Shown piece after piece: positions 32,831-49,756 of a stretch of 64,000 bases of DNA. The notes below the pieces were generated by a model. The model was not told the origin of the DNA. It saw only the letters and a program-made list of their open reading frames with translations, and did not search any database. Position 1 is the first letter of the stretch. Each line of letters opens with the position of its first letter. Position numbers and translations under genes: made by a program. Origin of the DNA: Pseudomonas nunensis (GTDB lineage: Bacteria > Pseudomonadota > Gammaproteobacteria > Pseudomonadales > Pseudomonadaceae). The stretch spans positions 3,412,501 to 3,476,500 of the forward strand of contig NZ_CP101125.1 of NCBI RefSeq assembly GCF_024296925.1. The letters run 5' to 3'.

Positions 32831-32831
32831 C

Positions 32832-34228: not shown

Positions 34229-34316
34229 GTGGGAGCCGGCTTGCTCGCGAAAGCGGTGGATCAGGCTATTGATGTATCGACTGACACACCGCCTTCGCGA
34301 GCAAGCCCGCTCCCAC
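34229..34316. repeat. REPIN with GGGAGCCGGC variation
   Basis: Left unit GTGGGAGCCGGCTTGCTCGC, right unit standard. Lies between the MFS gene and the end of the aldehyde dehydrogenase gene upstream of it. Confidence 0.85.
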
Positions 34317-34343
34317 ATAAGCGAGAGAGGTGCTGCACGTGGA

Positions 34344-35774
34344 TCAATACTTCATGACGACCAGTCGGGTCTGGGTGAACTCGAGCATGCCGTGCTTGCC
34401 GTCATCGCCGCCCAGGCCGGAACGTTTCCAACCGGCGTGGAAGCCCTGGTACGGGTCGGCCGGGGTGCGATTGACGTACAACTCGCCGGCCTCGATGGCG
34501 TTGGCGACTTTCATCGTGGTGCGGTAGTTCTCGGTGTACAGCACCGAGGACAGGCCGAATTGGTGATCGTTGGCCATGGCCAGCGCTTCGTCGATGTCGC
34601 GGTACTTGAGCACCGGCAACACCGGGCCGAAGATTTCTTCCTGGATGATTTCCATGTCCTGGCGGCAGTTGCTCAGCAGTGTCGGCGGGTAGAAATGACC
34701 GTGGCCTTCAGGAATAAAACCGCCTGTTTCCAGTACAGCACCGTCGGCGATGGCGCGCTCGACCATGGCGTGGATGTTCTGCCGAGAACTGGCGTTGACC
34801 AACGGGCCCATCAGACTGGCGTCAGTGGCGCGGTCGCCGAACTGCACGGCGCTGATCTTGGCTTTGAGCAGCGCGAGGAACTGGTCGTAGACGCTTTCCT
34901 GCACGTAGACCCGCTCCACCGCCGTGCACAACTGGCCGCAGTGGGTGGTCTTGGACGCGACGATGGCGCTGGCGGCGGCTTCCAGATCGGCGTCGGCTTC
35001 GATGATCGCCGGGGTTTTGCCGCCCAGTTCAAGCGATGGCTTGGCGATGTTGGCCTTGCAGTAATCGAGCACGATGCGCCCGGCGTTGACGCTACCGGTC
35101 AGGGTGATCAAACCGACGGCTTTGTGGGTGCAAACGGCGGCGGCAGTGGCGTGGTCCATGGTCAGGATATTCACCACACCGGCCGGCAAACCGGATTGCT
35201 GCACAGCCTTGGCGATTTCAAACGCCGAGGTCGGAGTGTTGTTGCTCGGGCGCACCACCACAGTGTTGCCGGCAATCAGCGCCGGGGCGATTTTGCGCAG
35301 CAAGGTGTAGACCGGGTAGTTGAACGGAATCAGGCACGCGACCACGCCAATCGGCTCGCGGTGCAGGAACAGGTTTTCGTTGGGGCTGTCGCTGGGAATG
35401 ATCTCGCCTTCGATCCGCCGCGCCCACTCCGCGTGGTAACGGGTGATCTGCGCGGCGTAGCGGGCTTCGTTGCTCGCGTCGCTGACACTCTTGCCGGATT
35501 CGGCGGCCAGCGCTGCACCGATATTCTCGGCGCAGGCGTCCAGGGCGTCGGCGAATGCGCGCAGGTGTTCGGCGCGTTCGATGCTGGTGAGCTTGCCCCA
35601 GAGCTTCTGGGCAGCGGCTGCGGCGTCGACGGCGGCGGTGGCTTCAGCACCGGTGGCCGCCGAGACGTGGCCGACCAAGGCTTCGGTCGCCGGGTTGTAG
35701 ACTGCAATCAGCGCATCGCTGGCAGGCTCAATGAAGTGACCGTTTACAAAGTTTCGCTCGAGTCGCATGTGCAT
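34344..35774 (-). CDS. aldehyde dehydrogenase (lactaldehyde/glycolaldehyde type)
   Basis: 476 residues of the NAD-dependent aldehyde dehydrogenase superfamily, most like AldA. Asn in LIPFNYPVYTL (about 150), Glu in SLELGGKTPA (about 247), Cys in HCGQLCTAVERV (about 284), and a C-terminal PFGG-like KRSGLGGDDGKHGM. ATG at 35774 or 35768 are both possible. Its upstream 93 bases are almost duplicated in front of the ABC-transporter cluster at 42066, indicating shared regulation. The REPIN after it separates it from the MFS gene. It oxidises a small hydroxy-aldehyde to the acid. Confidence 0.9.
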   Translation of the reverse strand: MHMRLERNFVNGHFIEPASDALIAVYNPATEALVGHVSAATGAEATAAVDAAAAAQKLWGKLTSIERAEHLRAFADALDACAENIGAALAAESGKSVSDASNEARYAAQITRYHAEWARRIEGEIIPSDSPNENLFLHREPIGVVACLIPFNYPVYTLLRKIAPALIAGNTVVVRPSNNTPTSAFEIAKAVQQSGLPAGVVNILTMDHATAAAVCTHKAVGLITLTGSVNAGRIVLDYCKANIAKPSLELGGKTPAIIEADADLEAAASAIVASKTTHCGQLCTAVERVYVQESVYDQFLALLKAKISAVQFGDRATDASLMGPLVNASSRQNIHAMVERAIADGAVLETGGFIPEGHGHFYPPTLLSNCRQDMEIIQEEIFGPVLPVLKYRDIDEALAMANDHQFGLSSVLYTENYRTTMKVANAIEAGELYVNRTPADPYQGFHAGWKRSGLGGDDGKHGMLEFTQTRLVVMKY

Positions 35775-35780
35775 CGCCCA

Positions 35781-35873
35781 TCGTTGTTTTTATCCAGTTC
35801 CCGCAGTCTTGGCATCCGGGCCGGGTTGAACAAACGATTTATTGAGCGGGGTAACATTCGAAAAATGCAGGTT
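35781..35873 (-). promoter_or_regulatory. promoter/operator element shared with 41959-42054 (copy B)
   Basis: Read on the minus strand, it contains in order TGCATTTTTCGAATGTTACC, AATAAATCGTTTGTT, GGATGCCAAGACTGCGGG and ATAAAAACAAC just before the aldehyde dehydrogenase start. The same blocks with nearly the same spacing occur before the ABC cluster. The conserved blocks are probably the operator and promoter of a common regulator. Confidence 0.65.
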
Positions 35874-35914
35874 ACCCCTATAGACGATGGGTTCCCACAG
35901 GGGGTTTGGTGTGG

Positions 35915-36847
35915 TTAGCTGGCGGCGGTGGACGGTTCGAGTTGGCGTTGCGCTAACCAGATTTCTTCCTGCAACCACTGGCTGAACACCTGCAATTGCG
36001 GATTCAGGGTCTGCTCCGGCCGGGTCACCAGCCAATAGGATTGATGCCCTTCCACGTGCACGTTCAGCACTTGGGTCAACTGCCCGCTGGCCAGTTCCGG
36101 TGCGACCATGTGCCAGTCGGCGATAGTGATGCCCAAACCGTCAGTCGCCGCGCGAATCGCCAGGTCCAGCAGATCGAATTCATAACCGCCCTGGGTGTCG
36201 ACGCCGCTGATTTTCGCCGCATCCAGCCAGTGTTTCCAGGTCAGGTAGCGCTGGTCTTCCCGAGCCAGTACATGCAGCAACGTCAGGCGATTGAGGTCGA
36301 TGCCACCCTCGCTCCACTCCCGTGAATACAGTGACGGCGCGCACACCGCGATGTGCCGTTCCTGGATCAGCAGCGAACTGTCCAGCCCATCCCATTCGCC
36401 ATCGCCAAAACGGATCGCACAGTCCAGGGTGCTGGTTTCCGCCAGGCTGTCCTGCAGACGGGTGGTAATGCTCAACTCCAGTTCCGGGTGCTTCTCGCGC
36501 AGGCGTCCCAGGCGCGGCATCAGCCAGCGGCTGGTGAAGGTCGGCGGCGCGTTGATGTGCAGACGATTGGCGTGAGATTTCTGCTGGATGCTGCGCACCG
36601 TCAGCTCGATCTTGTCGAAAGACTGGTGCAGCGCCCGCAGCAACACCCGGCCGGCACTGGTCAGTTCGAGGTGATGATGCCGGCGTTCCAGCAGGTTTTC
36701 GCCCAGCTGTTCCTCGAGCTGGCGCACCTGGCGGCTGACCGCGCTCTGGGTGACATTGAGCAACTCCGCCGCCCGGGTAAAGCTGCCGGTGCTGCCGGCC
36801 ACTTCGAAGGCTTTGAGCGCATTGAGCGCGGGCATTTTGCGTTTCAT
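35915..36847 (-). CDS. LysR-type regulator, GcvA-like
   Basis: 310 residues from ATG 36847 (MKRKMPALNALKAFEVAGST), the usual start of GcvA-like proteins; the frame continues upstream to a GTG at 36937 but that region has no similarity to the family. HTH: SFTRAAELLNVTQSAVSRQV. The effector domain includes NAPPTFTSRWLMPRLGRLRE, typical of the group. It lies immediately upstream of, and in line with, the aldehyde dehydrogenase gene, so it is a good candidate to act on the shared promoter element. Effector unknown. Confidence 0.88.
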   Translation of the reverse strand: MKRKMPALNALKAFEVAGSTGSFTRAAELLNVTQSAVSRQVRQLEEQLGENLLERRHHHLELTSAGRVLLRALHQSFDKIELTVRSIQQKSHANRLHINAPPTFTSRWLMPRLGRLREKHPELELSITTRLQDSLAETSTLDCAIRFGDGEWDGLDSSLLIQERHIAVCAPSLYSREWSEGGIDLNRLTLLHVLAREDQRYLTWKHWLDAAKISGVDTQGGYEFDLLDLAIRAATDGLGITIADWHMVAPELASGQLTQVLNVHVEGHQSYWLVTRPEQTLNPQLQVFSQWLQEEIWLAQRQLEPSTAAS

Positions 36848-36967
36848 GGACAGGACTCGCGCAAGGGCTGACGAGCGCCAAGCATCCCACGGCTCGTGGG
36901 AAATTTCCTGAGTAACATGCATTTTTGTGTTGTGCACGGTGATTTGAAGCGGATGTGGGTTGGCTGT

Positions 36968-37056
36968 GTGTGGGAGCGGGCTTGCTCGCGAAGGCGGTGT
37001 GTCAGTCGACCTTGTTTTGGCTGATACACCGCTTTCGCGAGCAAGCCCGCTCCCAC
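36968..37056. repeat. REPIN between divergent LysR and MFS genes
   Basis: Standard class; unusual in lying within a divergent gap (36848-37285), where promoters are expected. The rest of this gap is AT-rich, with CATGAGTATT and CTCATGACTATT motifs but no promoter that I can assign firmly. Confidence 0.85.
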
Positions 37057-37231
37057 ATTTGATCTGCGTTGCATCAACGGGGTCGTTTTCTGATTGGGAA
37101 ACTGTCGCTCACGCATAAATAGCATGAGTATTTCGCCGCACACTCATGACTATTAAGCACTGGCTGTTTTCTTTATATAAACGCTAGTCTGCTTTTAATT
37201 AAACACCGCAATACACCGCCGCACTTACATA

Positions 37232-37254
37232 GGGCGAAACGTTCAACTTCGCCC
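37232..37254 (+). promoter_or_regulatory. inverted repeat upstream of the MFS gene
   Basis: GGGCGAA (37232-37238) and TTCGCCC (37248-37254), a perfect 7-bp inverted repeat with a 9-base centre, 32 bases before the MFS start. It may be an operator or a leader hairpin. Confidence 0.4.
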
Positions 37255-37285
37255 CATCCTGTTGCAATTAATCCGAGCCGAATAT

Positions 37286-38521
37286 ATGCCGCCTACTGTT
37301 AATTCACCTGCCAGAAGTATTGGCCTATTGGCGCTCATCTTCACGGCCTGTAACGCCACCACCCACGGTTTCAGCATCTTCCTGTATTCGGCGTTATTAC
37401 CCGAGATCCGCCAGGTGTTCAACCTGAGCTACAGCCAGGCTGCGTTTATCGCGGCGCTGTTGCAGCTGTTCTATATGGGCGCATCGATTGTCAGCGGCAT
37501 CGCGGCGGCGTGGATCAGCCCGCGCAACATGGTGCGCCTGACGATGGCCTTGAGCCCGGCGCTGCTGGCCCTGGCGGTCGTTACACCCTGGGTGCTGCCG
37601 TTTGCGCTGTGCCTGGCACTGGTTTCGGCTTGTGCGGTGTCGAACTGGAACGCGATCGCGGCGCTGGCCTGCGAGGTGATCCCGGCCTCCCATCGCAGCC
37701 GCGTGCTGGGGCTGGCGTCTTCCGGGGCGGCGTTTGCAATTTGCCTCAACGGCGTGTTGATCGCTTTGCTGCACGGTATCTCGTTGACGCACTTCTGGCT
37801 GATCTGCTCCGCGCTGACGTTGATCGTCACCGCACTGACCTTCTGGGCCCTCGCCCCGCTCGCTAAACAGCAAGACCTCAAGCCCGGTCGCCCGCCTTCA
37901 TTGCGCCGGGTCCTTCGGCAATGGCTGCACCTGTGCCTGGAGCACCCGGTGGCGCTGCATATTCTGCTACTCAGTGCTTTTATCGGCGGGATCAGCGGAC
38001 CGTTCCTCAACTTCCTCTCAGCTTTCGCCAGCGAACGCCTGGGCGCCACCGCGCAAATCACCGGTTCACTGTGGACGCTGATCGGCATCGGCGGCGTTGT
38101 CGGTGGTTTGCTCCTGGGTGCATTGGCGGATCGCTGGGGCGCATTGCGGGTCATGGCGTTGAGCATCGGCGCGTTCGGCACGGCGATGCTGGCCCTGCTC
38201 TGGCAGCCGAGCCTGGGCCTGACTTGGTTGGCGGCCGGATTGTTCGCGCTGTTCTATTTCCCGGCCTGGGGTTTGATGGCCGCCTACCTCAGCGCACGCT
38301 TGAATCCGGTGCAGAGTCTGCAAGTGGTGAGCCTGAGCATGGTCGGTTATGGCCTGGGCAGCGCTACCGCCAATTGGCTGTGCGGCTGGCTGCTGCAAGC
38401 CACCGGGCAGTTCGCCCTGGTGCACGGCTGGATCGCCTGCTGGGTGGCGGCCAGCCTGTTATTGCTGGGGTTGATGGCCCGTCGCCAATCCCGCGAGCCC
38501 GCGCTCGGCCAGCCACTCTGA
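37286..38521 (+). CDS. MFS transporter
   Basis: 411 residues from ATG 37286, with about 12 hydrophobic segments and almost no soluble loops. GALADRWGAL at about 278 is the second-half A-motif; RSIGLLALIFTACNATTHGF is the first helix. The family resembles CynX/YbfB-type carriers; the substrate is not evident. It points toward, and its last 63 bases overlap, the end of the LysR gene on the other strand. Confidence 0.88.
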   Translation: MPPTVNSPARSIGLLALIFTACNATTHGFSIFLYSALLPEIRQVFNLSYSQAAFIAALLQLFYMGASIVSGIAAAWISPRNMVRLTMALSPALLALAVVTPWVLPFALCLALVSACAVSNWNAIAALACEVIPASHRSRVLGLASSGAAFAICLNGVLIALLHGISLTHFWLICSALTLIVTALTFWALAPLAKQQDLKPGRPPSLRRVLRQWLHLCLEHPVALHILLLSAFIGGISGPFLNFLSAFASERLGATAQITGSLWTLIGIGGVVGGLLLGALADRWGALRVMALSIGAFGTAMLALLWQPSLGLTWLAAGLFALFYFPAWGLMAAYLSARLNPVQSLQVVSLSMVGYGLGSATANWLCGWLLQATGQFALVHGWIACWVAASLLLLGLMARRQSREPALGQPL

Positions 38522-39373
38522 ACGGCTCAACTCGCGGCTGAAAATCTCCACCAGCGCCTCGACCGCCGGCGCCTGAGACTGAGCTGAACGCCAGAACATC
38601 AACTGCGCCGGGTCGATCGGCGGGAAGCCCTGCGCGTCATCCAGCACCTGCCAACCCGGCGGCACCAGGCGTCGCGCCGTAACGCCCACAGACTGGCCCT
38701 GCTCGATGGCGATCCCGATGCCCCGCGGGCTCTGGCTGGTGTAAACCACATGCCACGGCCGCCCGGCCTCGGCCAGCGCCCGCACCGCGTTGGCCCGGAA
38801 GGCGCAGCCCTCGGCGTACACCGCCAACGGCACCGACTCGCCCTCGCCAGCGCACCACCCTTCAGCCGCCACCCACACCAGCGGCTCGTCGCACAGGTAT
38901 TCCCCCGGTTGCAGATTGGCGTGCTGCACACCCAGCACCAGATCCAGTTCGCCGCGCTGCAAACGGCCGACCAGCGCGGTCGACATCTCGCAACAAATGT
39001 CCGGCCGCACCTGAGGAAACTGCGCCTGAAAGTCGCGTAGCACCCCGGCCAGGCAGAACTGGGCGTAATCCTCGGGCATGCCGACGTGAATGCACACGTG
39101 CTCGTCAGGCTGCTGCACGGCGTTGATCGCATCGGCGTGCAGCTTGAGGATCTGCCGGGCGTAGATCAGAAAGGTTTCGCCGCCGGGGGTCAGGCTCACC
39201 GAACGACTGGTGCGTTGCACCAGCGGCGTACCGACGATTTCTTCCAGCCGCTGCAAACTTTGACTGATGGTCGATTGGGTTTTATGCAGGCGTTCGGCGG
39301 CCGCGGAAAATCCGTGGCATTCGATAATCGCGACAAAGACTTTAAGTAAGGTCCCATCCAGTTCGCCTGACAT
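38459..39373 (-). CDS. LysR-type regulator divergent from the 2OG-oxygenase gene
   Basis: 304 residues: HTH GFSAAAERLHKTQSTISQSL (about 21-40), then the effector domain with CIHVGMPEDYAQFCLAGVL. It belongs to the group whose members often carry a compact second lobe and control transport or amino-acid genes. It is transcribed away from the BesD/HalD-like gene at 39490, and the gap holds matching AACTATCG sites (39374, 39438, 39466), one of which overlaps its own start codon and suggests autoregulation. The C-terminal 20 residues are encoded opposite the end of the MFS gene. Confidence 0.9.
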   Translation of the reverse strand: MSGELDGTLLKVFVAIIECHGFSAAAERLHKTQSTISQSLQRLEEIVGTPLVQRTSRSVSLTPGGETFLIYARQILKLHADAINAVQQPDEHVCIHVGMPEDYAQFCLAGVLRDFQAQFPQVRPDICCEMSTALVGRLQRGELDLVLGVQHANLQPGEYLCDEPLVWVAAEGWCAGEGESVPLAVYAEGCAFRANAVRALAEAGRPWHVVYTSQSPRGIGIAIEQGQSVGVTARRLVPPGWQVLDDAQGFPPIDPAQLMFWRSAQSQAPAVEALVEIFSRELSRSEWLAERGLAGLATGHQPQQ

Positions 39374-39437
39374 AACTATCGCCCCTGCCGATGGATTCGA
39401 TCACAACTTGTAATTTCCACTTCGCACCTCTTTAAGC

Positions 39438-39476
39438 AACTATCGATTCAACGCCAAACACTGTTAATTGATAGTT
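39438..39476. promoter_or_regulatory. inverted-repeat operator of the LysR / 2OG-oxygenase divergent pair
   Basis: AACTATCGATT (39438-39448) and AATTGATAGTT (39466-39476) match as an inverted repeat in 10 of 11 positions. A third half-site AACTATCG lies at 39374-39381. The second arm is 13 bases from the oxygenase start codon, so binding there could repress it. Confidence 0.6.
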
Positions 39477-39489
39477 CCAGGAGACTTGC

Positions 39490-40371
39490 ATGAGCCTTCA
39501 ACTTGCCGACGCCGAAGTGGGCGATATCAGCGACATCATTAATACCGAGTTGTACCCCATACATGATTCGGGCCATGTCCAATTACAGGCGCTGATCGAA
39601 CACGCCCGCGCCGAACTGGCCGAGGACGGCTGCTGCCTACTGAAGAATTTCCTGCGGCCCGAGGCGCTGGAGCAGGCCCGCGCCGAAGGCCAGGCGCTGT
39701 CGGGCAAGACGTTTTACTCGGTGCGCAAGGTCAACGCTTACTTCACCGAAGATGACCCCGCTCTGCCCCAGGATGACCCGCGCCGCACATTCATGGAGCG
39801 CACCAGCGGCTTCGTGACCCGGGACATGATCGCCCCGGACGCGATCATTCATCGCTTGTACGTCTCGCCGATGATGAAGCGCTTTATCGGCGCCTGCCTG
39901 AACGAACCGGAGATATTCGAATACGCCGACCCGTTCGCCGGCCTGGTGATTAACGTCATGCCCGAGGGCACCCAGCAGCCCTGGCACTTCGACACCAACG
40001 AATTCATCGTCAGCATGATGACCCAGAAGCCTGAGGCCGGAGGCTTGTTCGAGTACGCGCCGATGATCCGCACCCGCACTCAGGAAAACCTCGGCGCGGT
40101 GGGCAAAGTCGTGCGCGGCGATGACCGCAGCCGCGTGCAGGAACTGGAACTCAACCCCGGGGATTTGCAGATCTTCAAAGGCCGCTTCTCGGTGCACCGG
40201 GTAACCCGTGTCGAGGGCGCCACCGAGCGTAATACCGCGATCTTCGCCTACTCGGAAAAGCCCGGGATCATCGGCCGCGCCCAGCGCACCAAGCAGCTTT
40301 ACGGACGTCTGTCCGAAGCCCACCTGCAAGCCGAACGCAACCTGGTGCGCAGCGACCAGTTGCTCGACTGA
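39490..40371 (+). CDS. Fe(II)/2-oxoglutarate-dependent enzyme of the BesD/HalD group, with HxD triad
   Basis: 293 residues. Metal site: His166-Phe-Asp168 (PWHFDTNEFIVSMM) and distal His236 (FSVHRVTRVEG), with Arg240 or Arg247 as 2-oxoglutarate anchor. The sequence style (FYSVRKVNAYFTEDD, GLVINVMPEGTQQPWHF) is that of the BesD/HalD family, where free-amino-acid radical halogenases replace the Asp by Gly (HxG). Here Asp is present, so hydroxylation or another oxidation is predicted, not halogenation. AGGAG precedes ATG 39490. It is followed by an M24-family gene and an ABC importer, and is divergent from a LysR regulator. Likely substrate: a free amino acid or small zwitterion. Confidence 0.85.
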   Translation: MSLQLADAEVGDISDIINTELYPIHDSGHVQLQALIEHARAELAEDGCCLLKNFLRPEALEQARAEGQALSGKTFYSVRKVNAYFTEDDPALPQDDPRRTFMERTSGFVTRDMIAPDAIIHRLYVSPMMKRFIGACLNEPEIFEYADPFAGLVINVMPEGTQQPWHFDTNEFIVSMMTQKPEAGGLFEYAPMIRTRTQENLGAVGKVVRGDDRSRVQELELNPGDLQIFKGRFSVHRVTRVEGATERNTAIFAYSEKPGIIGRAQRTKQLYGRLSEAHLQAERNLVRSDQLLD

Positions 40372-40427
40372 TTCGCCCAAAAATTCCTAGAAAAAACCAA
40401 CTGTATTTGCCCTGCGAGGAACACCCC

Positions 40428-41657
40428 ATGAGTCTGTCCGGCCCTAACCGCAACCCCGCCGACTGCGAACCGACCTACGACGAAATCCAGCAAATCCAGC
40501 TCGACCGTTTGCAACGGGTGCGCAATGAACTGAAAAAACGCGACTACGCCGCGTGCGTGCTGTTCGACCCTACCCACATGCGCTACGCCACCGGCTCGCG
40601 CAACATGCAGGTGTACTCGGCGCGCAACCCGGCACGGTATGCCTTTATCCCGGCGGAAGGCCCGGTGGTGATCTTTGAGTTCGGCGGTTGCCTGCACCTG
40701 GCAGAACAGCTCAACACTGTCGACGAAGTGCGTCCGGCCAAAGCCATTTCCTATTACTTCTGCGACAGCTTCCTCAATAACGTCACCGCCGAATGGGCCG
40801 CCGAGATCGATGAACTGGTGCGCAAATGCGGCGGCGGCAACAAACGCATCGCCATCGAAAGCGCGACCTCGGCCGCCGCCTTCGAACTGCAAAAACTCGG
40901 CTATCAGATCTTCGACGCCCAGGAACCGCTGGAACGCGCGCGCTGCATCAAAGTGCCGAACGAGCTGAAGATGATCCGCGCCAGTCTGCGTGCCACCGAG
41001 GCCGGGGTGCGCCTGATGGAAAGCAAACTCGTGCCGGGCATCAGCGAAAACGAACTGTGGTCGCACCTGCACCAGCACGTGATCGCCACCGATGGCGATT
41101 ACGTGGAAACCCGCCTGCTGTCCTCGGGGCCGCGTACCAATCCATGGTTCCAGGAATGCAGCACCCGGCCGATCGAGGCCGGTGACCTGGTGGCGCTGGA
41201 CACCGACGTGGTCGGGCGTTTCGGCTACTACGCCGACTTCTCGCGGACCTTCCTCTGCGGTGAGCAAGCCGCGACCGCCAAGCAACAGGAGCTGTACAAA
41301 CTGGCCTACGAGCAAGTGCAGACCAACATGGAAATGCTCAAGGCCGGACGCAGCTTCAAGGAATACGCCGAATTGGCGTGGAAGATCCCGGATAACTACA
41401 AGGCCAACCGTTACTTCGCCCTGGCGCATGGCGTTGGCATGACCGGTGAATACCCGTACGTGGTGCACCGCGAAGACATCGATGCGCTGGGCTACGACGG
41501 CGTGTTCGAAGCCGGCATGACCATCTGCGTGGAAAGCTACATCGGCCACGATGAAGGCGGCGAAGGGGTCAAGCTCGAAGAACAGATCTACATCCACGAA
41601 AACGGTATCGAACTGCTCTCCGACTACCCGTTCGATCCGCGCCTGATGCCGCGTTGA
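40428..41657 (+). CDS. M24 (creatinase/peptidase) fold protein, DddP-like
   Basis: A 409-residue pita-bread metalloprotein. The metal residues are Asp258, Asp260, Asp270, His334, Glu369 and Glu384. The extra Asp two residues before the usual one, and the segment ETRLLSSGPRTNPWFQEC, agree with the DMSP lyase DddP as I remember it. The Asp that follows the HGVG motif in DddP and is reported to be catalytic is Gly340 here (HGVGMTGEYP), so DMSP cleavage is doubtful. It may instead hydrolyse or eliminate a related small zwitterion, perhaps the product of the preceding oxygenase. ATG 40428 has GAGGA ahead; 56 bases separate the two genes. Confidence 0.82.
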   Translation: MSLSGPNRNPADCEPTYDEIQQIQLDRLQRVRNELKKRDYAACVLFDPTHMRYATGSRNMQVYSARNPARYAFIPAEGPVVIFEFGGCLHLAEQLNTVDEVRPAKAISYYFCDSFLNNVTAEWAAEIDELVRKCGGGNKRIAIESATSAAAFELQKLGYQIFDAQEPLERARCIKVPNELKMIRASLRATEAGVRLMESKLVPGISENELWSHLHQHVIATDGDYVETRLLSSGPRTNPWFQECSTRPIEAGDLVALDTDVVGRFGYYADFSRTFLCGEQAATAKQQELYKLAYEQVQTNMEMLKAGRSFKEYAELAWKIPDNYKANRYFALAHGVGMTGEYPYVVHREDIDALGYDGVFEAGMTICVESYIGHDEGGEGVKLEEQIYIHENGIELLSDYPFDPRLMPR

Positions 41658-41707
41658 TTCCAACGCATGGGTGACCCCACGCGGGTCCCCTGGAAACGCG
41701 AACCCCT

Positions 41708-41839
41708 GTAGCAGCTGCCGAAGGCTGCGTTCGGCTGCGAAGCAGTCGTCATCCAGCCAATGCGGGGCAGCAGGAAGAATGTGGTCGCACCGTTTTGCGA
41801 CTGCTTCGCAGCCGAACGCAGCCTTCGGCAGCTGCTACA
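41708..41839. repeat. inverted repeat of the GTAGCAGCTGCCG class
   Basis: GTAGCAGCTGCCGAAGGCTG then CGTTCGGCTGCGAAGCAGTC faces its complement over about 45 unpaired bases. It marks the 3' end of the M24 gene and separates it from the ABC-importer promoter. Confidence 0.85.
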
Positions 41840-41958
41840 GGAGCGTTCGGCGGCGGCTACAGAAGACATGCATAGCGGTCGCAAACACGCGCGGTAAACG
41901 GCCGCCTCCAATTTTCCGGGCGCAACGCTTTCGAAGCGGCGTCTTCCTTACGGTCAGT

Positions 41959-42054
41959 AACATGCATTTATCGAACGTTTCACCGTTGAATTTATCGTTT
42001 GTCGATCTTTGCCCAGATGACAAAACTGCGGGCATCTCTAATAAAAACAACATG
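41959..42054 (+). promoter_or_regulatory. promoter/operator element of the ABC cluster (copy A)
   Basis: ATGCATTTATCGAACGTTTC, TTGAATTTATCGTTTGTC, AGATGACAAAACTGCGGG and ATAAAAACAACATG in order. Copy B upstream of the aldehyde dehydrogenase (35781-35873, minus strand) matches over the whole length with about a 2-base gap. TTGAAT with a downstream AT-rich block could be the -35 region, but the -10 is not certain. Confidence 0.65.
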
Positions 42055-42065
42055 AGAGCAGCCCT

Positions 42066-42164
42066 ATGTCCTACCCCATTTCCGACCTCCTGATTTCGTT
42101 GCGCCTTGATCTTCTGCTGGCTTCACGCCTGTCGTGCCTGTGCCTTCGCGGTACCTGCCACTGA
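42066..42164 (+). CDS. 32-codon Cys-rich leader ORF of the ABC importer
   Basis: ATG 42066 follows GAGAG by 7 bases. The product begins MSYPISDLLISLRLDLLLAS and ends with RLSCLCLRGTCH: three Cys codons (24, 26, 31) within the last nine. It directly follows the shared promoter and precedes two stem-loops and a T6 run, before the binding-protein gene at 42260. This is the layout of a ribosome-mediated attenuator sensing charged tRNA, here for cysteine. No homologue could be checked. Confidence 0.5.
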   Translation: MSYPISDLLISLRLDLLLASRLSCLCLRGTCH

Positions 42165-42169
42165 CAGTT

Positions 42170-42239
42170 TCGGTTCATCGAAAACCGACCGCGTCTGCCG
42201 CTCGCCCCACCCAGCGGCCAGTCGAAAAACGCATTTTTT
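42170..42239 (+). terminator. candidate attenuator between leader ORF and binding-protein gene
   Basis: Stem TCGGTT/AACCGA (42170-42188), stem GCCGCT/AGCGGC (42197-42218), then TTTTTT at 42234-42239, just before the GGAG of the next gene. The T-run is 15 bases from the second stem, so it is not a textbook terminator; alternative pairings are possible. Confidence 0.35.
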
Positions 42240-42259
42240 GCACGTTATCGGAGAGGCAT

Positions 42260-43894
42260 ATGAAAGAGTTAATGACACTGGACGGCACCCTGCCGCATCC
42301 AGCGGTAAACGACCTGTGCACCCAAGTCAAACGTGGCGAGATCAATCGCCGGCAATTCCTGCGCACCGCCGCGCTGCTGGGCATCACCGCCGCCAGCGCC
42401 AGCACCTTCCTAGGTTCTGCGTTGCTGGGCAATTCTGCTCGTGCTGCCGATGCGGTCACGCCGCGTCAGGGCGGCAGCCTGCGGTTTGCTTGCGCCATCC
42501 AGGAAATACAGGACCCGATGTTGATCACCTGGATCGAAGCCTCGAACCTGCTGCGCAACTCCCTGGAATATCTGACCTGGGTCGACGCCGACAACATCAC
42601 CCACCCGTACCTGGCCGAAAGCTGGAGCCCGTCCGAAGACCTCAAGACCTGGACCTTCAACCTGCGCCAGGACGTGAAGTGGAGCAACGGCGACACGTTC
42701 AATGTCGAGGACGTGCAGCACAACATCCAGCGCTGGATTGCCGCTGACTCCAAGTCGGTCAACCGCACCGCGTTCCAGGACATCAGCGCCTTCGAAAAAG
42801 TCAGCGACTTCCAGTTCCGCCTGGTGCTCAAGCGGCCGATGCTGGCGATCCCGGAAATGCTCAACGCCTTCACCTGCGCCATCGTCCATCGCAGCTTCAA
42901 GGCCGGTGACGATTGGGCGAAAAACCCGCTGGGCACCGGACCGTTCAAACTGGTGTCGTTCGCGGTCAACAAGCAGGCGACCTTCGCCAAGCGTGCCGAT
43001 TACTGGCGCAAACCGGCCAACCTCGACGAGTTGCGTTACGTCGACATGGGCACCGACATCTCCACCCACCTCGCGGCATTACAGGCCGGGCAAGTGGACG
43101 TGCTGTACCGGGTGACCGTGGCCGAACTCGACCTGGCCAAACGCTTGCCGGGGGCGCAGTTGCTCACCTGTAAGTCGGCGCAAACCATCGTCATGCGCAT
43201 GGCCTGCGACCAGAAACCGTTCGACGACGTGCGGATTCGCAAAGCCGTTGTGCTGTGCGCCGACAACGCACAGATGCTGAAAATTGCCTATCGCGGCATG
43301 GGCACCCTGGGCGAAGACCATCACGTCGCACCGTCGCACCCGGAATACTTTCCGTTGCCCAAACGAGCGAGGGACGTCGCGGGCGCGAAGAAACTTCTCG
43401 CCGAGGCCGGCCACCCGAACGGCATCGACATCGACCTGATCGTCGGCAACACCCAGGGCCGTTACGAACAGGACTGCGCGCAGATCCTGCAACAAAACTG
43501 CGCCGAAGCCGGCATCCGCATCAACCTGAAAGTGATCCCGGCCACCCAGTATTGGCCAATCTGGGACAAAGCCGCGTTCAGCCTCACCTACTGGGCGCAT
43601 CGGCCACTCGGCGTGATGTCGCTGGAACTGGCGTATCGCAGCGGTGCAGCCTGGAACGAGAGCCACTACAGCGACCCGGCGTTCGATGCTGCACTCGATA
43701 ATGCCATGGGCATCATCGACCCGAAACAACGCGCGGCCGCCATGCAGAACGTCGAGCAAATCCTGCAAGACGCCTGCGTCATGGTGCAGCCGTTCTGGGG
43801 CGACAAATTCACCGCCGCGAGCAAGAAAGTCCAGGGATTTCAGGTTCACCCGTCGGACTTCTACCCAATGGATGAAGTCTGGCTGAGCGCCTGA
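42260..43894 (+). CDS. ABC transporter substrate-binding protein, dipeptide/oligopeptide (SBP_bac_5) type
   Basis: 544 residues from ATG 42260 (GGAG 6 bases ahead). A Tat-type signal, NRRQFLRTAALLGITAAS, starts about residue 29, preceded by an unusually long n-region; cleavage near ARAADA. The mature part is a large family-5 binding protein: LAESWSPSEDLKTWTFNLRQ, DVKWSNGDTFNVEDV and NPLGTGPFKLVSF. Such proteins bind peptides, glutathione, or amino-acid derivatives. It is the first structural gene of the importer operon. Export folded by Tat is unusual for this class but occurs. Confidence 0.92.
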   Translation: MKELMTLDGTLPHPAVNDLCTQVKRGEINRRQFLRTAALLGITAASASTFLGSALLGNSARAADAVTPRQGGSLRFACAIQEIQDPMLITWIEASNLLRNSLEYLTWVDADNITHPYLAESWSPSEDLKTWTFNLRQDVKWSNGDTFNVEDVQHNIQRWIAADSKSVNRTAFQDISAFEKVSDFQFRLVLKRPMLAIPEMLNAFTCAIVHRSFKAGDDWAKNPLGTGPFKLVSFAVNKQATFAKRADYWRKPANLDELRYVDMGTDISTHLAALQAGQVDVLYRVTVAELDLAKRLPGAQLLTCKSAQTIVMRMACDQKPFDDVRIRKAVVLCADNAQMLKIAYRGMGTLGEDHHVAPSHPEYFPLPKRARDVAGAKKLLAEAGHPNGIDIDLIVGNTQGRYEQDCAQILQQNCAEAGIRINLKVIPATQYWPIWDKAAFSLTYWAHRPLGVMSLELAYRSGAAWNESHYSDPAFDAALDNAMGIIDPKQRAAAMQNVEQILQDACVMVQPFWGDKFTAASKKVQGFQVHPSDFYPMDEVWLSA

Positions 43895-43970
43895 TTCGAG
43901 CGCCCCTCATGCGGCTCGCCCACCTCGGTGGGTTGGGCCGCCATCCCTTGATTAGCCGGAGCGTGCGAGA

Positions 43971-44924
43971 ATGGCTGAATTTCTATTGCGCAAGTTATTG
44001 GCGCTGGCGGCAACACTGTTGTCGGTGTCGGTGATCGTGTTCCTGGCCCTGGAACTGAATATCGAAGACGTTGCGATCAACGTCCTCGGCCCCTACTCCG
44101 CCGCCGACCAGCGCGCCGCGTGGCTGGTGGAACACGGTTACAACCAACCCTTCGTCTGGCGTTACCTGGTGTGGCTGAAGGATTTTCTCAGCGGCGACTG
44201 GGGCACTTCGGTGCACTTTCGCGAGCCGGTGATCGACCTGTTGCTGCCGAACCTCGGGCAAACGTTGATCCTCGCGGGCCTGGCCCTCGCGGTGATGGTG
44301 CCGGTGGCGTTGACCCTCGGCATTCTGGCCGGGATTCGCCAAGGCTCGGCGGTGGATCGGCTGGTGTCATTCCTGTCGATCGTCACCACTTCGATTCCGG
44401 ACTTCGCCAGTGCGGTGTTCGTCTCGGCGATCTTCGTCTTCTGGCTCAACTGGCTGCCGGGCGTGAGCAGCATGAGCGACGGCTTCAACCCCGTGGAGCT
44501 GGCGCTGCCGCTAATGGTGTTGTGCCTGTTCGGCATCGGTTATCTGGCGCGGATCACCCGGGCCTCGATGGTCGAGGTGATGCAGGCGCCGTACATCCGC
44601 ACCGCCCGCCTCAAAGGCGCGTCAACCTCACGAATCGTGCTGCGGCATGCCTTGCGCAACGTGTTGATCGCACCGATCACGGTGATCATGTTGTACATCC
44701 CCTGGCTGCTGTCGAACGTGATCGTGGTCGAGGTGTTCTTCGCCTACAAAGGCTTCGGTTCACTGCTCTATACCGCGTCGCTGAACCATGACGTGTACCT
44801 GATCGAAGCCTGCGCAATGATCAGCGGCATCGTGGTCGGCGCGACCAAAATCTTCTCGGACCTGGCCTACACCTGGCTCAACCCGCGCATCACCTTGCGC
44901 AGTCTTGGCGGAGGTGGCCAATGA
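43971..44924 (+). CDS. ABC transporter permease, DppB type
   Basis: A 317-residue inner-membrane subunit with six hydrophobic segments. N-terminal helix LLRKLLALAATLLSVSVIVF and the EAA-loop region RASMVEVMQAPYIRTARLKG (about 200) that contacts the ATPase. It overlaps the next permease gene by 4 bases (ATGA). Confidence 0.94.
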   Translation: MAEFLLRKLLALAATLLSVSVIVFLALELNIEDVAINVLGPYSAADQRAAWLVEHGYNQPFVWRYLVWLKDFLSGDWGTSVHFREPVIDLLLPNLGQTLILAGLALAVMVPVALTLGILAGIRQGSAVDRLVSFLSIVTTSIPDFASAVFVSAIFVFWLNWLPGVSSMSDGFNPVELALPLMVLCLFGIGYLARITRASMVEVMQAPYIRTARLKGASTSRIVLRHALRNVLIAPITVIMLYIPWLLSNVIVVEVFFAYKGFGSLLYTASLNHDVYLIEACAMISGIVVGATKIFSDLAYTWLNPRITLRSLGGGGQ

Positions 44925-45757
44925 ACTTCCTCAACTCGTTCAAACATCCCTTGGCGTTGCTCGGTTTGCTGCTGGTCGGCGGCTGGGTGTTGATGGCGAT
45001 TTTTGCTCCGTGGCTGGCGCCCCACGATCCCCTGGAAAGCTTTACCCCGCTGCTGACGCCGATGACCCCGGATGGCAACGGCATGAGCTTTCTGCTGGGC
45101 ACTGACATGATTGGTCGGGACATTCTCTCGAGGCTGATCTGGGGCACCCGCACGGTGTTGTTCTGGTCGATTCTCGCCACGCTCACCGCATTCGCCGTGG
45201 GCATCGCCATGGGCCTGTGCGCCGGCTACTTCAATGGCTGGGTCGACGGGTTGTTGTCCTATGTCGCCGACACCGTGCTGTCGTTCCCGGTGCTGGTGTT
45301 GTACATCGTGATCATCATCGCCCTCGGCGCCTCGGCGTTGAACATCCTGATCGCGGTGACCTTCACCAGCGCCCCGGCAATTTTCCGGATCATGCGTGCG
45401 TTGACCATCGACATTCGTTCCCGGGACTACGTGCTCAGCGCCATCACCCAGGGCGAAGGCTCGCTGCGAATCATGCTGATGGAAATCCTGCCGAACTGTG
45501 GCGGGCCGTTGATCGTCGATTTCTGCCTGCGAATCGGCTACACCGCGATCATGATCGGTGCCCTCGGCTTCCTCGGCCTCGGCCTGCCGCCGCCCACACC
45601 CGACTGGGGCGGCATGATCAACGAAGGCCGCAGCATGGCCATCGCCTTCCCGCACCTGGTGATCTTCCCGTGCATTGCCATCTCCACCCTGATGCTGGGC
45701 CTGAGCCTGTTGGCGGACGGTCTGGACGAACACGCCCAGAAAGGCGCAAGGAGCTGA
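44921..45757 (+). CDS. ABC transporter permease, DppC type
   Basis: 278 residues; LLGTDMIGRDILSRLIWGTR (about 55) is the DppC/OppC signature and RIMRALTIDIRSRDYVLSAI is the EAA loop. It pairs with the preceding permease to form the channel. The ATPase gene begins 3 bases after its stop. Confidence 0.94.
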   Translation: MNFLNSFKHPLALLGLLLVGGWVLMAIFAPWLAPHDPLESFTPLLTPMTPDGNGMSFLLGTDMIGRDILSRLIWGTRTVLFWSILATLTAFAVGIAMGLCAGYFNGWVDGLLSYVADTVLSFPVLVLYIVIIIALGASALNILIAVTFTSAPAIFRIMRALTIDIRSRDYVLSAITQGEGSLRIMLMEILPNCGGPLIVDFCLRIGYTAIMIGALGFLGLGLPPPTPDWGGMINEGRSMAIAFPHLVIFPCIAISTLMLGLSLLADGLDEHAQKGARS

Positions 45758-45759
45758 GC

Positions 45760-47406
45760 ATGAGTCAGTTGCAAGTATTACGCGTGGAAAACCTCTCCAT
45801 CGAATTGCCCGCCGGTGCTGATCGCAGCCACGCCGTAAAGGGCATCAGCCTCGACGTGCGCAAGGGTGAAATCCTCTGTGTGATCGGTGAATCCGGCTCC
45901 GGCAAATCGGTGCTCTCGGCGGCGATCATGGGTGATTACGCCAAGGGCCTGCGCCACAGCGATGGGGTGATCGACTTTCTCGGTGACGACATTTGCCGCA
46001 TGGACGAACACTCCCTGCGCCGCTTGCGTGGCAACCGTATCGCGATGATTTTCCAGGAGCCGATGGCGGCGCTGAACCCGGCGATTCGCATCGGCCAGCA
46101 AGTCGAAGAAATCTTCGACATTCACGCACCGAGCATGCCGGCCGCCGAGCGCCGCGAACGCATGCTCGCCCTGCTCGATTCGACCCAATTGCCCGACCCG
46201 CCACGGATCGCCAACAGCTTCCCGCATCAACTCTCCGGCGGCCAATGCCAACGGGTGGTGATTGCCATGGCGCTGGCGATGAACCCGGATTTGTTGATTG
46301 CCGACGAACCGACCACGGCGCTGGACGTGACCACTCAGGCCCAAGTGTTGAAACTGGTGCGAGACCTGCGCGGTCGCGGTCAGCACGGCATTTTGTTCAT
46401 CACTCACGACTTCGGCGTGGTGGCGGAAATCGCCGACCGCATCGCCGTGATGGAGGACGGTGTGTTGGTGGAAATCGGCGAGCGCGATCAAGTGCTCAAT
46501 GCACCAAAACACCCGTACACCCGCAAGTTGATCGCCGCCGTGCCGGCGCTGCACCCGGAGTTGCACGCACCGTGCGCCGATGGGGAGCTGGCGTTGCGCA
46601 TCGAGCACCTGACCAAAACCTACAACGTCGGCGGCCGCCTGGTGCCGGCGCTCAAGGATGTCTCGCTGCAATTGCCACGGGGCAAAACATTGGCGATTGT
46701 CGGCGAATCCGGCTCGGGCAAGAGCACATTGGTGAAAGCGGCGATTCGTCTGGTGGACAGCGACAGCGGCCACGTGTGGGTCGGTGACACGGATTTCCTC
46801 GCGCTGCGCGGCTCGGCCCTGGCGGCCAATCGGCGGCGGATCCAGATGATTTTCCAGGACCCGTACGGCTCGCTGAATCCACGGCATCGGGTCGGCGACA
46901 TCATCGCCCGCGCGGCGCAACTGCGTGGGTTATCGGCCAAGGACGCGTGGACCGAGGCCGGTGACTTGCTGGAACAGGTCGGGCTCAAGCGTGACGCCCT
47001 CAAGCGCAAGCCCCGGCAGTTCTCCGGCGGCCAGCGCCAGCGCATCGGTATCGCCCGGGCCTTGGCGATGCGCCCGGAAGTGTTGATCGCCGATGAAAGC
47101 GTCTCGGCGCTGGATGTCTCGGTGCAAAAACAAGTCCTGGAGCTGCTCGCCGAACTGCAACAGCGCCTGAACCTGAGCATTTTGTTCATCACCCACGACC
47201 TGCGCGTGGCGGCGCAGATCAGTGACTACATCGCGGTGATGCGCCAGGGCGAAGTGGTGGAGTACGGCACGGCGCAGCAGGTGCTTTTGCGACCGCAAAA
47301 CACCTACACCCAGACCCTGCTGGCGGCGGCGCCCGGTGCTTCGGCGATCCCGGTAGTGCCCGTCGCTGAACCACCGCTGAGGCTGATCCGACCTCAGGCC
47401 AACTGA
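45760..47406 (+). CDS. fused double ABC ATPase, DppD-DppF type
   Basis: 548 residues with two complete ATPase domains: Walker A GESGSGKS at 43-50 and about 316-323; signatures LSGGQ (first) and FSGGQ (second); Walker [13 protein letters not shown] and [12 protein letters not shown] (the second has Ser in place of Pro). Each ends in the oligopeptide-ATPase C-terminal motif with HPYTRKL and NTYTQTL. The fused form supplies both nucleotide-binding sites of the importer. The start ATG 45760 follows AAGGAG; the upstream extension of this frame overlaps the permease and is not coding. Confidence 0.94.
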
Positions 47407-47486
47407 CCTCATAACCCTTTCCCCAGGTCGCAGCGTTCGCTGCGGCATGGGTTGCTGTTGCCAACGATAACTAAAAAATCAGGAGT

Positions 47487-48674
47487 ATGACTGTGCGCAC
47501 AACCACCCCGATTGCGGTCCGTTCCATCGTTTTGATTCCACTGCTCGGTGCCTTCGCGGCGCCGGCCATGGCGGTCCAAGTCACCGACAACCTCGACCTC
47601 GGCGGCGCCATTCGCGCCCGCTGGGACTACGACCCGGATCGCGACATCCAGAAGTTTGGCCTGGACACGGTGTTCCTCAGCGCCAAGTACAACTCCGACA
47701 CCTGGATCGGTGAGGCGCAATACCGTTTTTACGGACGCTCCTACCCTTACCAGTACACCAAGAACTACGGCGACATTCAGTTCGCCAAGTTCGCCTGGGC
47801 CGGCTACAAGTTCAACCCCGACCAGCAAGTGCAAGTCGGCCTGAACACGGTGCCGTTCGGCTTGCAGCCGTACTTCGGCAGCACCTTCTACGAAACCCTG
47901 GGCAATGTCATCGGCCTGGAAGATGTGCAACAGGTCGGCGCCAAGTACATCCAGCAAAGCGGCGACTGGAACATCCAGGCCGGTTACTACTTGCGCCCGG
48001 CGTGGCAAGGCAAAGGCACCAGCAAAGGCGTGACCTATTCCAGCGTGGTGTCCGGGGCCGACAGCTATGTGGGCGACGGCAGCGACAACCAGGAACGCAA
48101 CACCGTGGTGCTGCGGGTGGCCAAGGCGCTGGACCTGGGGCCGTGGAAATCTGAAGTCGGTATTTCCGGCCTGACTTCAACGTTAGAGAACAAGGACACC
48201 GACAACGACGGCCGGCGCAACGCCGTGGCCGTGCACTACCTCGGCAAGAACGGCCCGTGGGGCGTGCAATTGCAAGCGGCACGCCAGCAGATGTCGCCGC
48301 GCAACGCCGGCACCGATGAAGTGGTGACCCTCGGCGGTTACGACGGCACTTACAACGTCGCCAGTCGCGGCAACCTGTACGTGGCAGATCTGAGCTACGA
48401 CGTCAGCGGCAAATACCTGTTCGATCTGGTCAGCGGCGTGAAGCTGTACGCCAACTACAGCGCCTTCGACAAATCCGCCGATGAGTTCAAGACCTCGCAG
48501 CGGATGATCCTCGGTACGTCGTTTTCCTTCAGCAAACTGTGGATCGCGACGGAGTGGTTGTATGGCAAGAATGATCCGTATATCGGCGGTAGCAGCTACA
48601 CCCAGAGTTTGGGGGCTGGCGGGACTGACCACTGGGAGAATCAGTTGTATATGAACATTGGGTATTACTTCTGA
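47487..48674 (+). CDS. outer membrane porin of the importer cluster
   Basis: 395 residues. Signal peptide about 1-30 (LIPLLGAFAAPAMA|V), then a beta-barrel rich in alternating aromatic residues and ending in Phe (NQLYMNIGYYF), the typical outer-membrane C-terminus. It begins like DcaP/OprP-type porins (DNLDLGGAIRARWDYDPDRD). AGGAG precedes ATG 47487. As the last gene of the ABC operon it probably admits the same substrate across the outer membrane. Confidence 0.88.
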   Translation: MTVRTTTPIAVRSIVLIPLLGAFAAPAMAVQVTDNLDLGGAIRARWDYDPDRDIQKFGLDTVFLSAKYNSDTWIGEAQYRFYGRSYPYQYTKNYGDIQFAKFAWAGYKFNPDQQVQVGLNTVPFGLQPYFGSTFYETLGNVIGLEDVQQVGAKYIQQSGDWNIQAGYYLRPAWQGKGTSKGVTYSSVVSGADSYVGDGSDNQERNTVVLRVAKALDLGPWKSEVGISGLTSTLENKDTDNDGRRNAVAVHYLGKNGPWGVQLQAARQQMSPRNAGTDEVVTLGGYDGTYNVASRGNLYVADLSYDVSGKYLFDLVSGVKLYANYSAFDKSADEFKTSQRMILGTSFSFSKLWIATEWLYGKNDPYIGGSSYTQSLGAGGTDHWENQLYMNIGYYF

Positions 48675-48702
48675 TCCGGATTCTTTGGCGTTTTTGAGGA
48701 CG

Positions 48703-48775
48703 CCTCGCGGGCAAGCCTCGCTCCTACAGGGGATTGAGTGTTCCTTGTAGGAGCGAGGCTTGCCCGCGAAGACTT
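48703..48775. repeat. REP pair in tail-to-tail order, GTAGGAGCGAGGC variant
   Basis: CGCGGGCAAGCCTCGCTCCTAC comes first and GTAGGAGCGAGGCTTGCCCG second, the reverse of the normal order, with about 20 bases between. Confidence 0.8.
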
Positions 48776-48892
48776 TAGCCCAAACACCACTTGCATCAGC
48801 CCCTGCCACAGGAGTCAGATACGCCCTACAAAACCATCACCAAAAACAATAAACCTGCCCCGCATCGGCGTCAGGTATGGAGTCACCCTTCC

Positions 48893-49756
48893 ATGCGTCA
48901 ACTGCCCTCGCTCAACATGCTGCGGGTCTTTGAAGAAGTCGCGCGGCATCGCAGTTTCAGCCAGGCGGCGCTGGGTCTGAACGTTACCCAAGGCGCGGTC
49001 AGCCGTCAGATCAAGCAGCTCGAAGATTACCTCGGCGTGGCCCTGTTCATCCGCACGCCGCAAGGCCTGTCACTGACCGAAACCGGCCTCGCCCTATCCC
49101 CGCATTTAAGCGACGCCTTCGATCACATCGAACGTGCCCTGCAAGCGGTGCGCGTGCCCAATCTGCGCCAGCGCCTGCGCATCGTCGCGCCACCAACCTG
49201 GGCCACGCGCTGGCTGTCGGCGCACTTGCGTGCATTCTGCCAGCGCTACCCGGACATCAGCCTGAGCGTGACCCACCAAACCGGCCACGACAACCTCGCG
49301 GAAATCGACTGCCACATCCGTTTCGGCCTCGAAGCCGACAGCCAATGCAGCAGCCAGTTACTGGTGATGGAACGCCACATGGCGGTGGCCAGCCCGGAGT
49401 TGTTTATCAATGGTCAACCGCCGGACCTGCGGCAGTTTCCGCTGCTGCACATCCTGCACGATGGCAGGCGTTTGAAGGTGTGGGAGAACTGGCTGGCGGC
49501 GATGGGCCGTGACGATATCGATGCGGGGCAAGGGCTGGAATTCAGCACCCTCGACCAAGTGATCCACACGGCGCTGGCCGGTGGCGGGTTGGCGGTGATT
49601 GATCGGCAGATGATCGAAAAGGAACTGGCCAATGGCAGTTTGTTGCCGATCACTCCCGTAGAAGTGATCGGGCCGTATGGGTATTGGCTGGATGTGGCGA
49701 ATGACAAATTGGGATTGTCGAAGGTACGGTTGTTTACGGAGTGGTTGGGTCTGTAG
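48893..49756 (+). CDS. LysR-type regulator, GcvA-like
   Basis: 287 residues from ATG 48893 (MRQLPSLNMLRVFEEVARHR), with GGAG about 10 bases ahead. HTH SFSQAALGLNVTQGAVSRQI; effector domain with VAPPTWATRWLSAHLRAF. It is a paralogue of the regulator at 35915-36847. Lying directly after the importer cluster, it is a second candidate for control of the shared promoter element. Its stop codon TAG falls in the first bases of the following repeat. Confidence 0.9.
   Translation: MRQLPSLNMLRVFEEVARHRSFSQAALGLNVTQGAVSRQIKQLEDYLGVALFIRTPQGLSLTETGLALSPHLSDAFDHIERALQAVRVPNLRQRLRIVAPPTWATRWLSAHLRAFCQRYPDISLSVTHQTGHDNLAEIDCHIRFGLEADSQCSSQLLVMERHMAVASPELFINGQPPDLRQFPLLHILHDGRRLKVWENWLAAMGRDDIDAGQGLEFSTLDQVIHTALAGGGLAVIDRQMIEKELANGSLLPITPVEVIGPYGYWLDVANDKLGLSKVRLFTEWLGL

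Follow-up and report, generated by a model that had tools for sequence, protein, structure and literature searches.

A candidate betaine-hydroxylating oxygenase–M24 cassette beside a probably independent importer in Pseudomonas nunensis

The radical halogenases of the HalD/BesD family, which chlorinate free amino acids, lack the Asp ligand of the metal site (HxG or HxA), leaving room for the halide. Gamma-butyrobetaine dioxygenase (BBOX), a 2-oxoglutarate (2OG) oxygenase of a subfamily other than that of the oxygenase described below, hydroxylates a betaine on the route to carnitine. ATP-binding cassette (ABC) importers of the Opp/Dpp/Nik/Gsi type combine a solute-binding protein (SBP), two permeases and paired ATPase domains. 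Among the M24 metalloenzymes, the dimethylsulfoniopropionate (DMSP) lyase DddP binds its metals through Asp295, Asp297, Asp307, His371, Glu406 and Glu421, and Tyr366 and Asp377 are reported to be invariant in DddP lyases, with Asp377 as the favoured base (PMC4108388). In ectoine systems, the M24 hydrolase DoeA and the 2OG oxygenase EctD each act on a compatible solute (PMC3187862). Here, we describe a locus at which a HalD-like oxygenase (OXY) and a DddP-related M24 protein (M24) stand beside an Opp-type importer, in a stretch of 64,000 nucleotides (the window) that covers bases 3412501–3476500 of the single-contig 7.33 Mb genome of Pseudomonas nunensis, whose closest named relatives are Pseudomonas.

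We propose, with modest confidence and from sequence comparison, that the locus consists of two modules: an inserted cassette (module A), which hydroxylates and then cleaves a betaine-like quaternary-ammonium compound, and an importer (module B) that is independent of it. Module A (MFS1–LysR1–OXY–M24) would be an inserted catabolic cassette in which LysR1 controls the divergent OXY–M24 genes from a conserved operator; OXY would hydroxylate a small betaine-like quaternary-ammonium zwitterion, and the dinuclear-metal enzyme M24 would then cleave the product of this step to give an amine and a carbon fragment. Module B (SBP–OppB–OppC–OppDF–porin–LysR2, with LysR0) would work as an importer in its own right. 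The parts named in the preliminary description of the locus, namely LysR1, an HxD oxygenase, a DddP-like M24 protein, a family-5 SBP, OppB, OppC and OppDF, a porin and LysR2, are all present by profile or PDB matches or, for the porin, by its named homologues. The features of module A are as follows.

37058..41952: extent of the inserted cassette, from flank alignment against genomes that hold the importer only
37262..38521, + strand: MFS1, major facilitator (MFS) transporter, first gene of the cassette (PF07690)
38459..39373, − strand: LysR1, putative divergent regulator of OXY–M24 (PF00126 and PF03466)
39389..39419, + strand: candidate LysR1 operator, CGATGGATTCNAT-N12-TTTCNA, kept from Pseudomonas to Marinomonas
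39490..40371, + strand: OXY, 2OG/Fe(II) oxygenase with a HalD/BesD-like predicted fold and an HxD facial triad (PF23169, 40.2 bits)
40428..41657, + strand: M24, DddP-related M24 metalloenzyme with its ATG at 40428 (PF00557 and PF01321; PDB 4b28)

The pairing of OXY with M24 recurs across the Proteobacteria. Of 58 proteobacterial loci with OXY (the window; L033–L066; L068; L107; L122, L125 and L165; L147–L164), 54 have M24 on the same strand no more than 1.5 kb downstream; the 58 are not all independent, since 33 of them (the window together with L033–L065, L056 excepted) are near copies from Pseudomonas. The exceptions are L068, L125, L164 and L162, the last with a truncated M24 gene running off the contig; at L163 one gene intervenes between the two. 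The two proteins diverge congruently (distance correlation r = 0.965, 28 loci), and among 249 Pseudomonas genomes sampled evenly from a larger set, orthologues of OXY (at least 92% identity) and of M24 (at least 95%) occur in the same 20. P. oryzihabitans (L056) carries MFS1, LysR1, OXY and M24 at 80, 80, 94 and 96% identity, respectively, and Marinomonas MED121 (L066) carries LysR1, OXY and M24 at 48, 73 and 86%; among the 68 loci compared, MFS1 has no match above 100 bits outside the window and L033–L065. Against P. oryzihabitans, the ratio of nonsynonymous to synonymous substitution rates (dN/dS) is 0.027 for OXY (dS 1.25), 0.028 for M24 (dS 0.88), 0.114 for MFS1 and 0.132 for LysR1; OXY and M24 are evidently under strong purifying selection. 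When 61 OXY proteins are placed in a tree, the 29 M24-linked and the 16 carnitine-acyltransferase-linked rows separate with a single change, and none of 500 shuffles gave so low a value; these labels were assigned by the analyst, 16 of the 61 rows carry none, and the tree has several weak deep branches and some long rows. To judge from these comparisons, the OXY–M24 pair is a real, old and conserved unit. PADLOC gave no defence-system match for either protein. No published description of the pair was recognised among the titles and abstract openings listed in a literature search, and on that footing the cassette is apparently undescribed so far.

OXY matches the Pfam HalD profile well above its cut-off of 26 bits. 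Its AlphaFold2 model, with a mean predicted local distance difference test (pLDDT) score of 90.7, finds HalD 7u6h as the best Foldseek match (E = 7.8e-16; template modelling (TM) score 0.62 by query and up to 0.71 by target), and the nearest folds are HalD 7u6h, HalB, BesD 6nie, HalA and the BesD-like lysine hydroxylase 7jsd, at 14–17% identity; structures of the HalD/BesD family hold ranks 1–41, with TM scores of 0.65–0.72 by target and 0.53–0.63 by query. OXY shares with this family and its lysine hydroxylase (7u6h, 7u6j, 6nie and 7jsd) the predicted fold, PF23169 and the 2OG/Fe site residues, but differs from it in its low identity, in its HxD motif and in the linkage of its relatives to betaine transporters or to a carnitine acyltransferase. 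All 34 aligned OXY rows, from the window and from 33 of the best 120 among 1202 matches, have H166, D168, H236 and R247; we take H166, D168 and H236 to be the canonical HxD...H facial triad and R247 to be the 2OG-binding Arg. The loss of Asp that marks the halogenases is seen in none of these 34 rows, which keep H166-x-D168 throughout. Because the HxD triad is kept, OXY is more likely to be a hydroxylase than a halogenase, and the latter reading is disfavoured. Many OXY homologues are labelled as HalD/BesD family halogenases in the source databases, and since the HxD Asp is present in all aligned rows, these labels are likely to be over-annotations. At L122, L125 and L165, two divergent oxygenase copies lie 1–2 kb apart, and genes for an MR_MLE enzyme and a D-2-hydroxyacid dehydrogenase are close by.

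The neighbours of OXY in other genomes bear on its substrate. PF04069 (OpuAC) denotes glycine-betaine-type binding proteins, and an OpuAC gene lies within 8 kb of OXY in at least 13 of 24 loci, where 0.9 would be expected from genome-wide counts (P = 2.5e-13); the figure is at least 12 of 22 with two near-copies removed, and at least 10 of 24 within 5 kb (0.59 expected). These 24 loci are made up of a set of 18, four other same-genus loci, and one each from P. oryzihabitans and the window; Marinomonas, L068, L107, the Actinobacteria and the remaining Pseudomonas orthologues lay outside the test. Three of the OXY-linked OpuAC proteins match solved OpuAC, ProX, ChoX, OsmF, choline/carnitine and EgtUC structures. 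Carriers of the BCCT family occur at L068, L107 and L147, and at L123 an M24 gene at 50% identity stands without OXY beside an OpuAC gene. At L151, M24 is followed at 0.6 kb by a sarcosine-oxidase-beta-like gene. Between M24 and OpuAC, a second 2OG oxygenase (PF03171/PF14226) is present at L147 (5803–6804, − strand) and L149 (10208–11260, + strand). At L153, L158 and L160, the gene after M24 encodes a CoA-acylating (methyl)malonate-semialdehyde dehydrogenase, an enzyme for which these genomes have three, four and five genes; as this link comes from three loci of one family, we do not rely on a malonate-semialdehyde product. Likewise, the MR_MLE, 2-hydroxyacid dehydrogenase and hydroxyproline-type neighbours (L068 and L124) do not converge on a single substrate.

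The actinobacterial relatives of OXY (44 loci, L067–L112 except L068 and L107, among the best 80 of 471 relatives) have a different partner. In 43 of the 44, OXY is followed by a carnitine acyltransferase gene no more than 4 kb away, the contig of the 44th ending at OXY, and M24 adjoins OXY in none of the 44. In 41 of the 44, a methyltransferase-like gene also lies downstream; its product has a sub-threshold Pfam match only, and its model (pLDDT 80.9) matches mostly S-adenosylmethionine methyltransferases at low TM scores (about 0.3–0.5). The resulting three-gene array of HalD-like oxygenase, methyltransferase-like protein and carnitine acyltransferase is possibly a route of carnitine-like biosynthesis, and the position of the oxygenase gene before a carnitine acyltransferase gene recalls the BBOX route to carnitine. 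Taken together, the OpuAC, BCCT and carnitine-acyltransferase links point to a quaternary-ammonium compound as the substrate, most likely hydroxylated by OXY; they fix neither the exact compound nor the cleavage by M24.

The closest PDB chain to M24 is 4b28 (E = 4e-77), whereas the best solved prolidase reaches only E = 1.4e-14. We take 4b28 to be RdDddP, because its numbering, moved by a constant 23, agrees with that of PMC4108388. All 30 aligned M24 rows keep the six ligands of the dinuclear metal site and the equivalent of Tyr366, but the position of Asp377 is Gly in 29 of them, the window included. M24 thus has in common with DddP (4b28, 4s01 and 4rzy) the sequence family, the metal ligands and the Tyr366 equivalent; it differs in lacking the equivalent of Asp377, in scoring 334.9 bits against the NCBIfam DddP model NF043017 (cut-off 600) and in adjoining an oxygenase gene in the proteobacterial loci counted above. 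The Asp377 position and the score place it outside the DddP family. The M24 protein of L122 is alone among the 30 in having the DddP-type Asp (CDE). The ectoine systems likewise have an M24 enzyme and a 2OG oxygenase, but M24 matches solved DoeA at only E = 4e-4, which speaks against an ectoine hydrolase, and OXY is HalD-like by profile and fold. Many M24 homologues are labelled as Xaa-Pro peptidases in the source databases.

Module B and the genes that adjoin it are arranged as follows.

34344..35774, − strand: ALDH1, aldehyde dehydrogenase behind LysR0 (NF007497, 531.9 bits, cut-off 500)
35915..36937, − strand: LysR0, which faces SBP where the cassette is absent
41953..42064, + strand: importer operon promoter block, apparently retained after insertion (85–93% identity to L117–L121)
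42066..42164, + strand: small open reading frame (ORF), formerly the 'Cys-rich leader', lineage-specific and with Cys not conserved
42260..43894, + strand: SBP, family-5 solute-binding protein with a twin-arginine N-terminus (PF00496)
43971..44924, + strand: OppB-type permease (PF00528)
44921..45757, + strand: OppC-type permease (PF00528 and PF12911)
45760..47406, + strand: OppDF, fused OppD–OppF ATPase with two PF00005 stretches in a frame without a stop; the start is taken as ATG 45760, as a longer ORF from 45217 would overlap OppC
47487..48674, + strand: porin, from homologues named porin, some with PF07396; the protein itself has no Pfam, NCBIfam or PDB match at the thresholds used
48791..49756, + strand: LysR2, GcvA-type regulator, start perhaps at 48893 (PF00126 and PF03466; 225 bits against the NCBIfam GcvA subfamily, under its cut-off of 288)

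With a family-5 SBP, two BPD_transp_1 permeases and two ABC ATPase domains, module B has the composition of a peptide/opine/nickel importer. It differs from the standard Opp/Dpp/Nik/Gsi-type systems in that its ATPases are fused and its SBP and permeases reach no NCBIfam cut-off. The N-terminus of SBP carries NRRQFLR, which we take to be a twin-arginine translocation (Tat)-type motif.

SBP orthologues (E ≤ 1e-200, at least 85% identity) occur in 29 of the 249 genomes, 20 with OXY and nine without orthologues of OXY or M24. The order SBP–OppB–OppC–OppDF–porin–LysR2 is intact in all nine importer-only loci, LysR0 is directly divergent from SBP in eight of them (the ninth, L189, starts at the edge of its contig), and four have ALDH1 behind LysR0. 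When the window is aligned to L117–L121, the left flank ends at 36928–37057 (at 37057 in two of the five loci, the end of a REP-like repeat) and the right flank starts at 41953–41958 in all five. About 4.9 kb of DNA, holding MFS1–LysR1–OXY–M24, thus separates LysR0 from SBP in the window. We favour insertion of this cassette between the two over its loss from the importer-only genomes, because copies of the cassette occur elsewhere. The genes at 29840–36937 of the window (a GMC oxidoreductase, an MR_MLE enzyme, an MFS transporter, ALDH1 and LysR0) stay beside the importer in L119–L121, and this group is more likely to be the metabolic partner of the importer than OXY–M24. A promoter shared with an aldehyde dehydrogenase, as had been supposed, is not borne out, as there is no such gene within 38459–49756 and the cassette separates LysR0 and ALDH1 from SBP. 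Farther along, ALDH2 (51445–52971) scores 695.7 bits against TIGR01780, the model for succinate-semialdehyde dehydrogenase, and so exceeds its cut-off of 646.35. Identical 1179-base ORF copies (1179/1179), transposase-like in appearance, lie in opposite orientation at 4430–5608 (+ strand) and 22042–23220 (− strand), flanking the interval between them, and an ORF pair at 27179–28344 resembles an IS3-type transposase.

The regulatory sequences are likewise consistent with two modules. LysR1 relatives at 38–48% identity are found in L066, L068, L147–L149, L151–L153 and L155–L160, and the motif CGATGGATTCNAT-N12-TTTCNA between LysR1 and OXY is conserved from Pseudomonas to Marinomonas, although it was derived from these same loci and is present there by construction. 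The whole 7.3 Mb genome holds one exact copy, one with two mismatches and 25 with three, against two in all for a reversed control pattern; with these predicted sites, the LysR1 regulon may be wider than OXY–M24. Within the window, no second match was found at up to three mismatches, the SBP promoter included, which argues against control of the importer by LysR1. Control of the importer by a Cys-rich leader had also been suggested and can be set aside. The ORF at 42066–42164 was compared in 32 sequences, that of the window and those of 31 relatives. Its start and promoter are mostly conserved, L050 lacking the stretch, but its Cys count is three in the window and ranges from 0 to 4, and its endings vary (LSCLCLRGTCH in the window, LRRCCACH, LSRLRLRAAGH, or unrelated ones such as DPDRQR). 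In the importer-only L117–L121, where the promoter block is kept, the same 5' signal (ATAAAAACAACATGAGAGC) runs into the SBP start codon at the position of the leader ATG (42066).

The idea that the locus is a single system, in which the porin and the SBP-dependent importer bring in the compound processed by OXY and M24, draws on the neighbourhood itself: of the 20 genus genomes with OXY, 18 have SBP just downstream of the pair and on one contig with it (it is on another contig in G177 and G205), and SBP is present in 31 of 33 named Pseudomonas OXY loci (L033–L065; L043 ends before SBP and L056, from P. oryzihabitans, lacks it). The preliminary description held that the pair and the importer being rarely neighbours elsewhere would count against it; they are regular neighbours in the fluorescens-type lineage, so that this objection does not apply there, although one inherited insertion explains it. 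The importer occurs without the pair in nine of 29 genomes, and 17 OXY genomes (P. oryzihabitans, Marinomonas and 15 others) have no SBP orthologue; 11 of these 17 hold SBP relatives at E ≤ 1e-30, at 25–31% identity except for a 42/49% match in G792. In 24 far loci other than L056 (5.4–20.9 kb), SBP, OppB, OppC and the porin have no match at E ≤ 1e-10; ABC ATPases at 25–32% identity to OppDF are present among these loci. Together with the lack of the operator motif at the importer promoter, this leaves a single system quite improbable; it is disfavoured because of the importer-only genomes and the OXY genomes without an SBP orthologue, and the locus is, as far as sequence can tell, two separate modules side by side. 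The earlier import–oxidise–cleave route accordingly survives in part: a zwitterion that is oxidised and then cleaved fits OXY–M24 and its betaine-type neighbours, whereas the importer and porin belong to the other module.

Other rivals concern the chemistry of the pair. OXY might be an amino-acid hydroxylase like the BesD-type enzymes and M24 an Xaa-Pro dipeptidase, so that the two would act on a lysine-like amino acid or peptide; the nearest folds, which are lysine/ornithine halogenases and a lysine hydroxylase, and the database names of many M24 homologues agree with this, but the betaine-type binding-protein genes near OXY and the closer match of M24 to DddP than to any solved prolidase make it unlikely. 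That M24 is itself a DMSP lyase, in a cassette for sulfonium compounds, is in keeping with DddP as the closest structure, with the invariant metal ligands and Tyr366 equivalent, and with the dehydrogenase that follows M24 at L153, L158 and L160, an enzyme kind also used downstream of DMSP cleavage. The replacement of the favoured base by Gly and the score far below the family cut-off render it highly improbable.

Several observations nevertheless weigh against the proposed hydroxylation and cleavage of a betaine-like compound by an independent cassette. The closest characterised oxygenases to OXY act on lysine or ornithine, the reactions of M24 enzymes are varied (peptides, creatine, ectoine and DMSP), so the bond cleaved is a guess, and, since M24 is missing beside the actinobacterial copies, members of the OXY family may differ in substrate. 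Among the matches listed, 11 of the 24 loci, the window included, have no OpuAC gene within 8 kb, and the window's own locus has none within 10 kb; its cassette carries instead an MFS carrier, which does not define the substrate. M24 matches at E ≤ 1e-60 occur in 47 of the 249 genomes, in 27 of them only at 39–50% identity, and in 23 of these 27 nothing matches OXY at E ≤ 1e-20. Finally, another, distantly related Opp-type importer, with SBP at 27%, OppB and OppC at 35% and an OppDF-like gene, stands upstream of OXY in P. oryzihabitans, some 10 kb (about 6.5–12 kb) away (contig C11 of G851 from 91295; L056:3–3515), and, as the fluorescens-type lineage also keeps pair and importer together, the two may confer a shared benefit.

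A wider hypothesis is possible but doubtful: that HxD HalD-like enzymes are unrecognised betaine hydroxylases, which in Proteobacteria would have a DddP-like M24 enzyme as their partner in a hydroxylate-and-cleave route not yet described, and in Actinobacteria would form part of a three-gene operon (OXY, methyltransferase-like protein and carnitine acyltransferase) that makes and acylates carnitine or a carnitine-like compound de novo. The locus carries a warning for the reading of gene neighbourhoods, since neighbours joined by insertion may be misread as one pathway. If the betaine assignment is true, it would give a substrate class to many proteins that are now called HalD/BesD family halogenases or Xaa-Pro peptidases, and it would add a new means by which soil and salt-loving bacteria degrade betaine-type compounds. 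The actinobacterial operon would, in that case, make bacterial carnitine-like biosynthesis directly testable.

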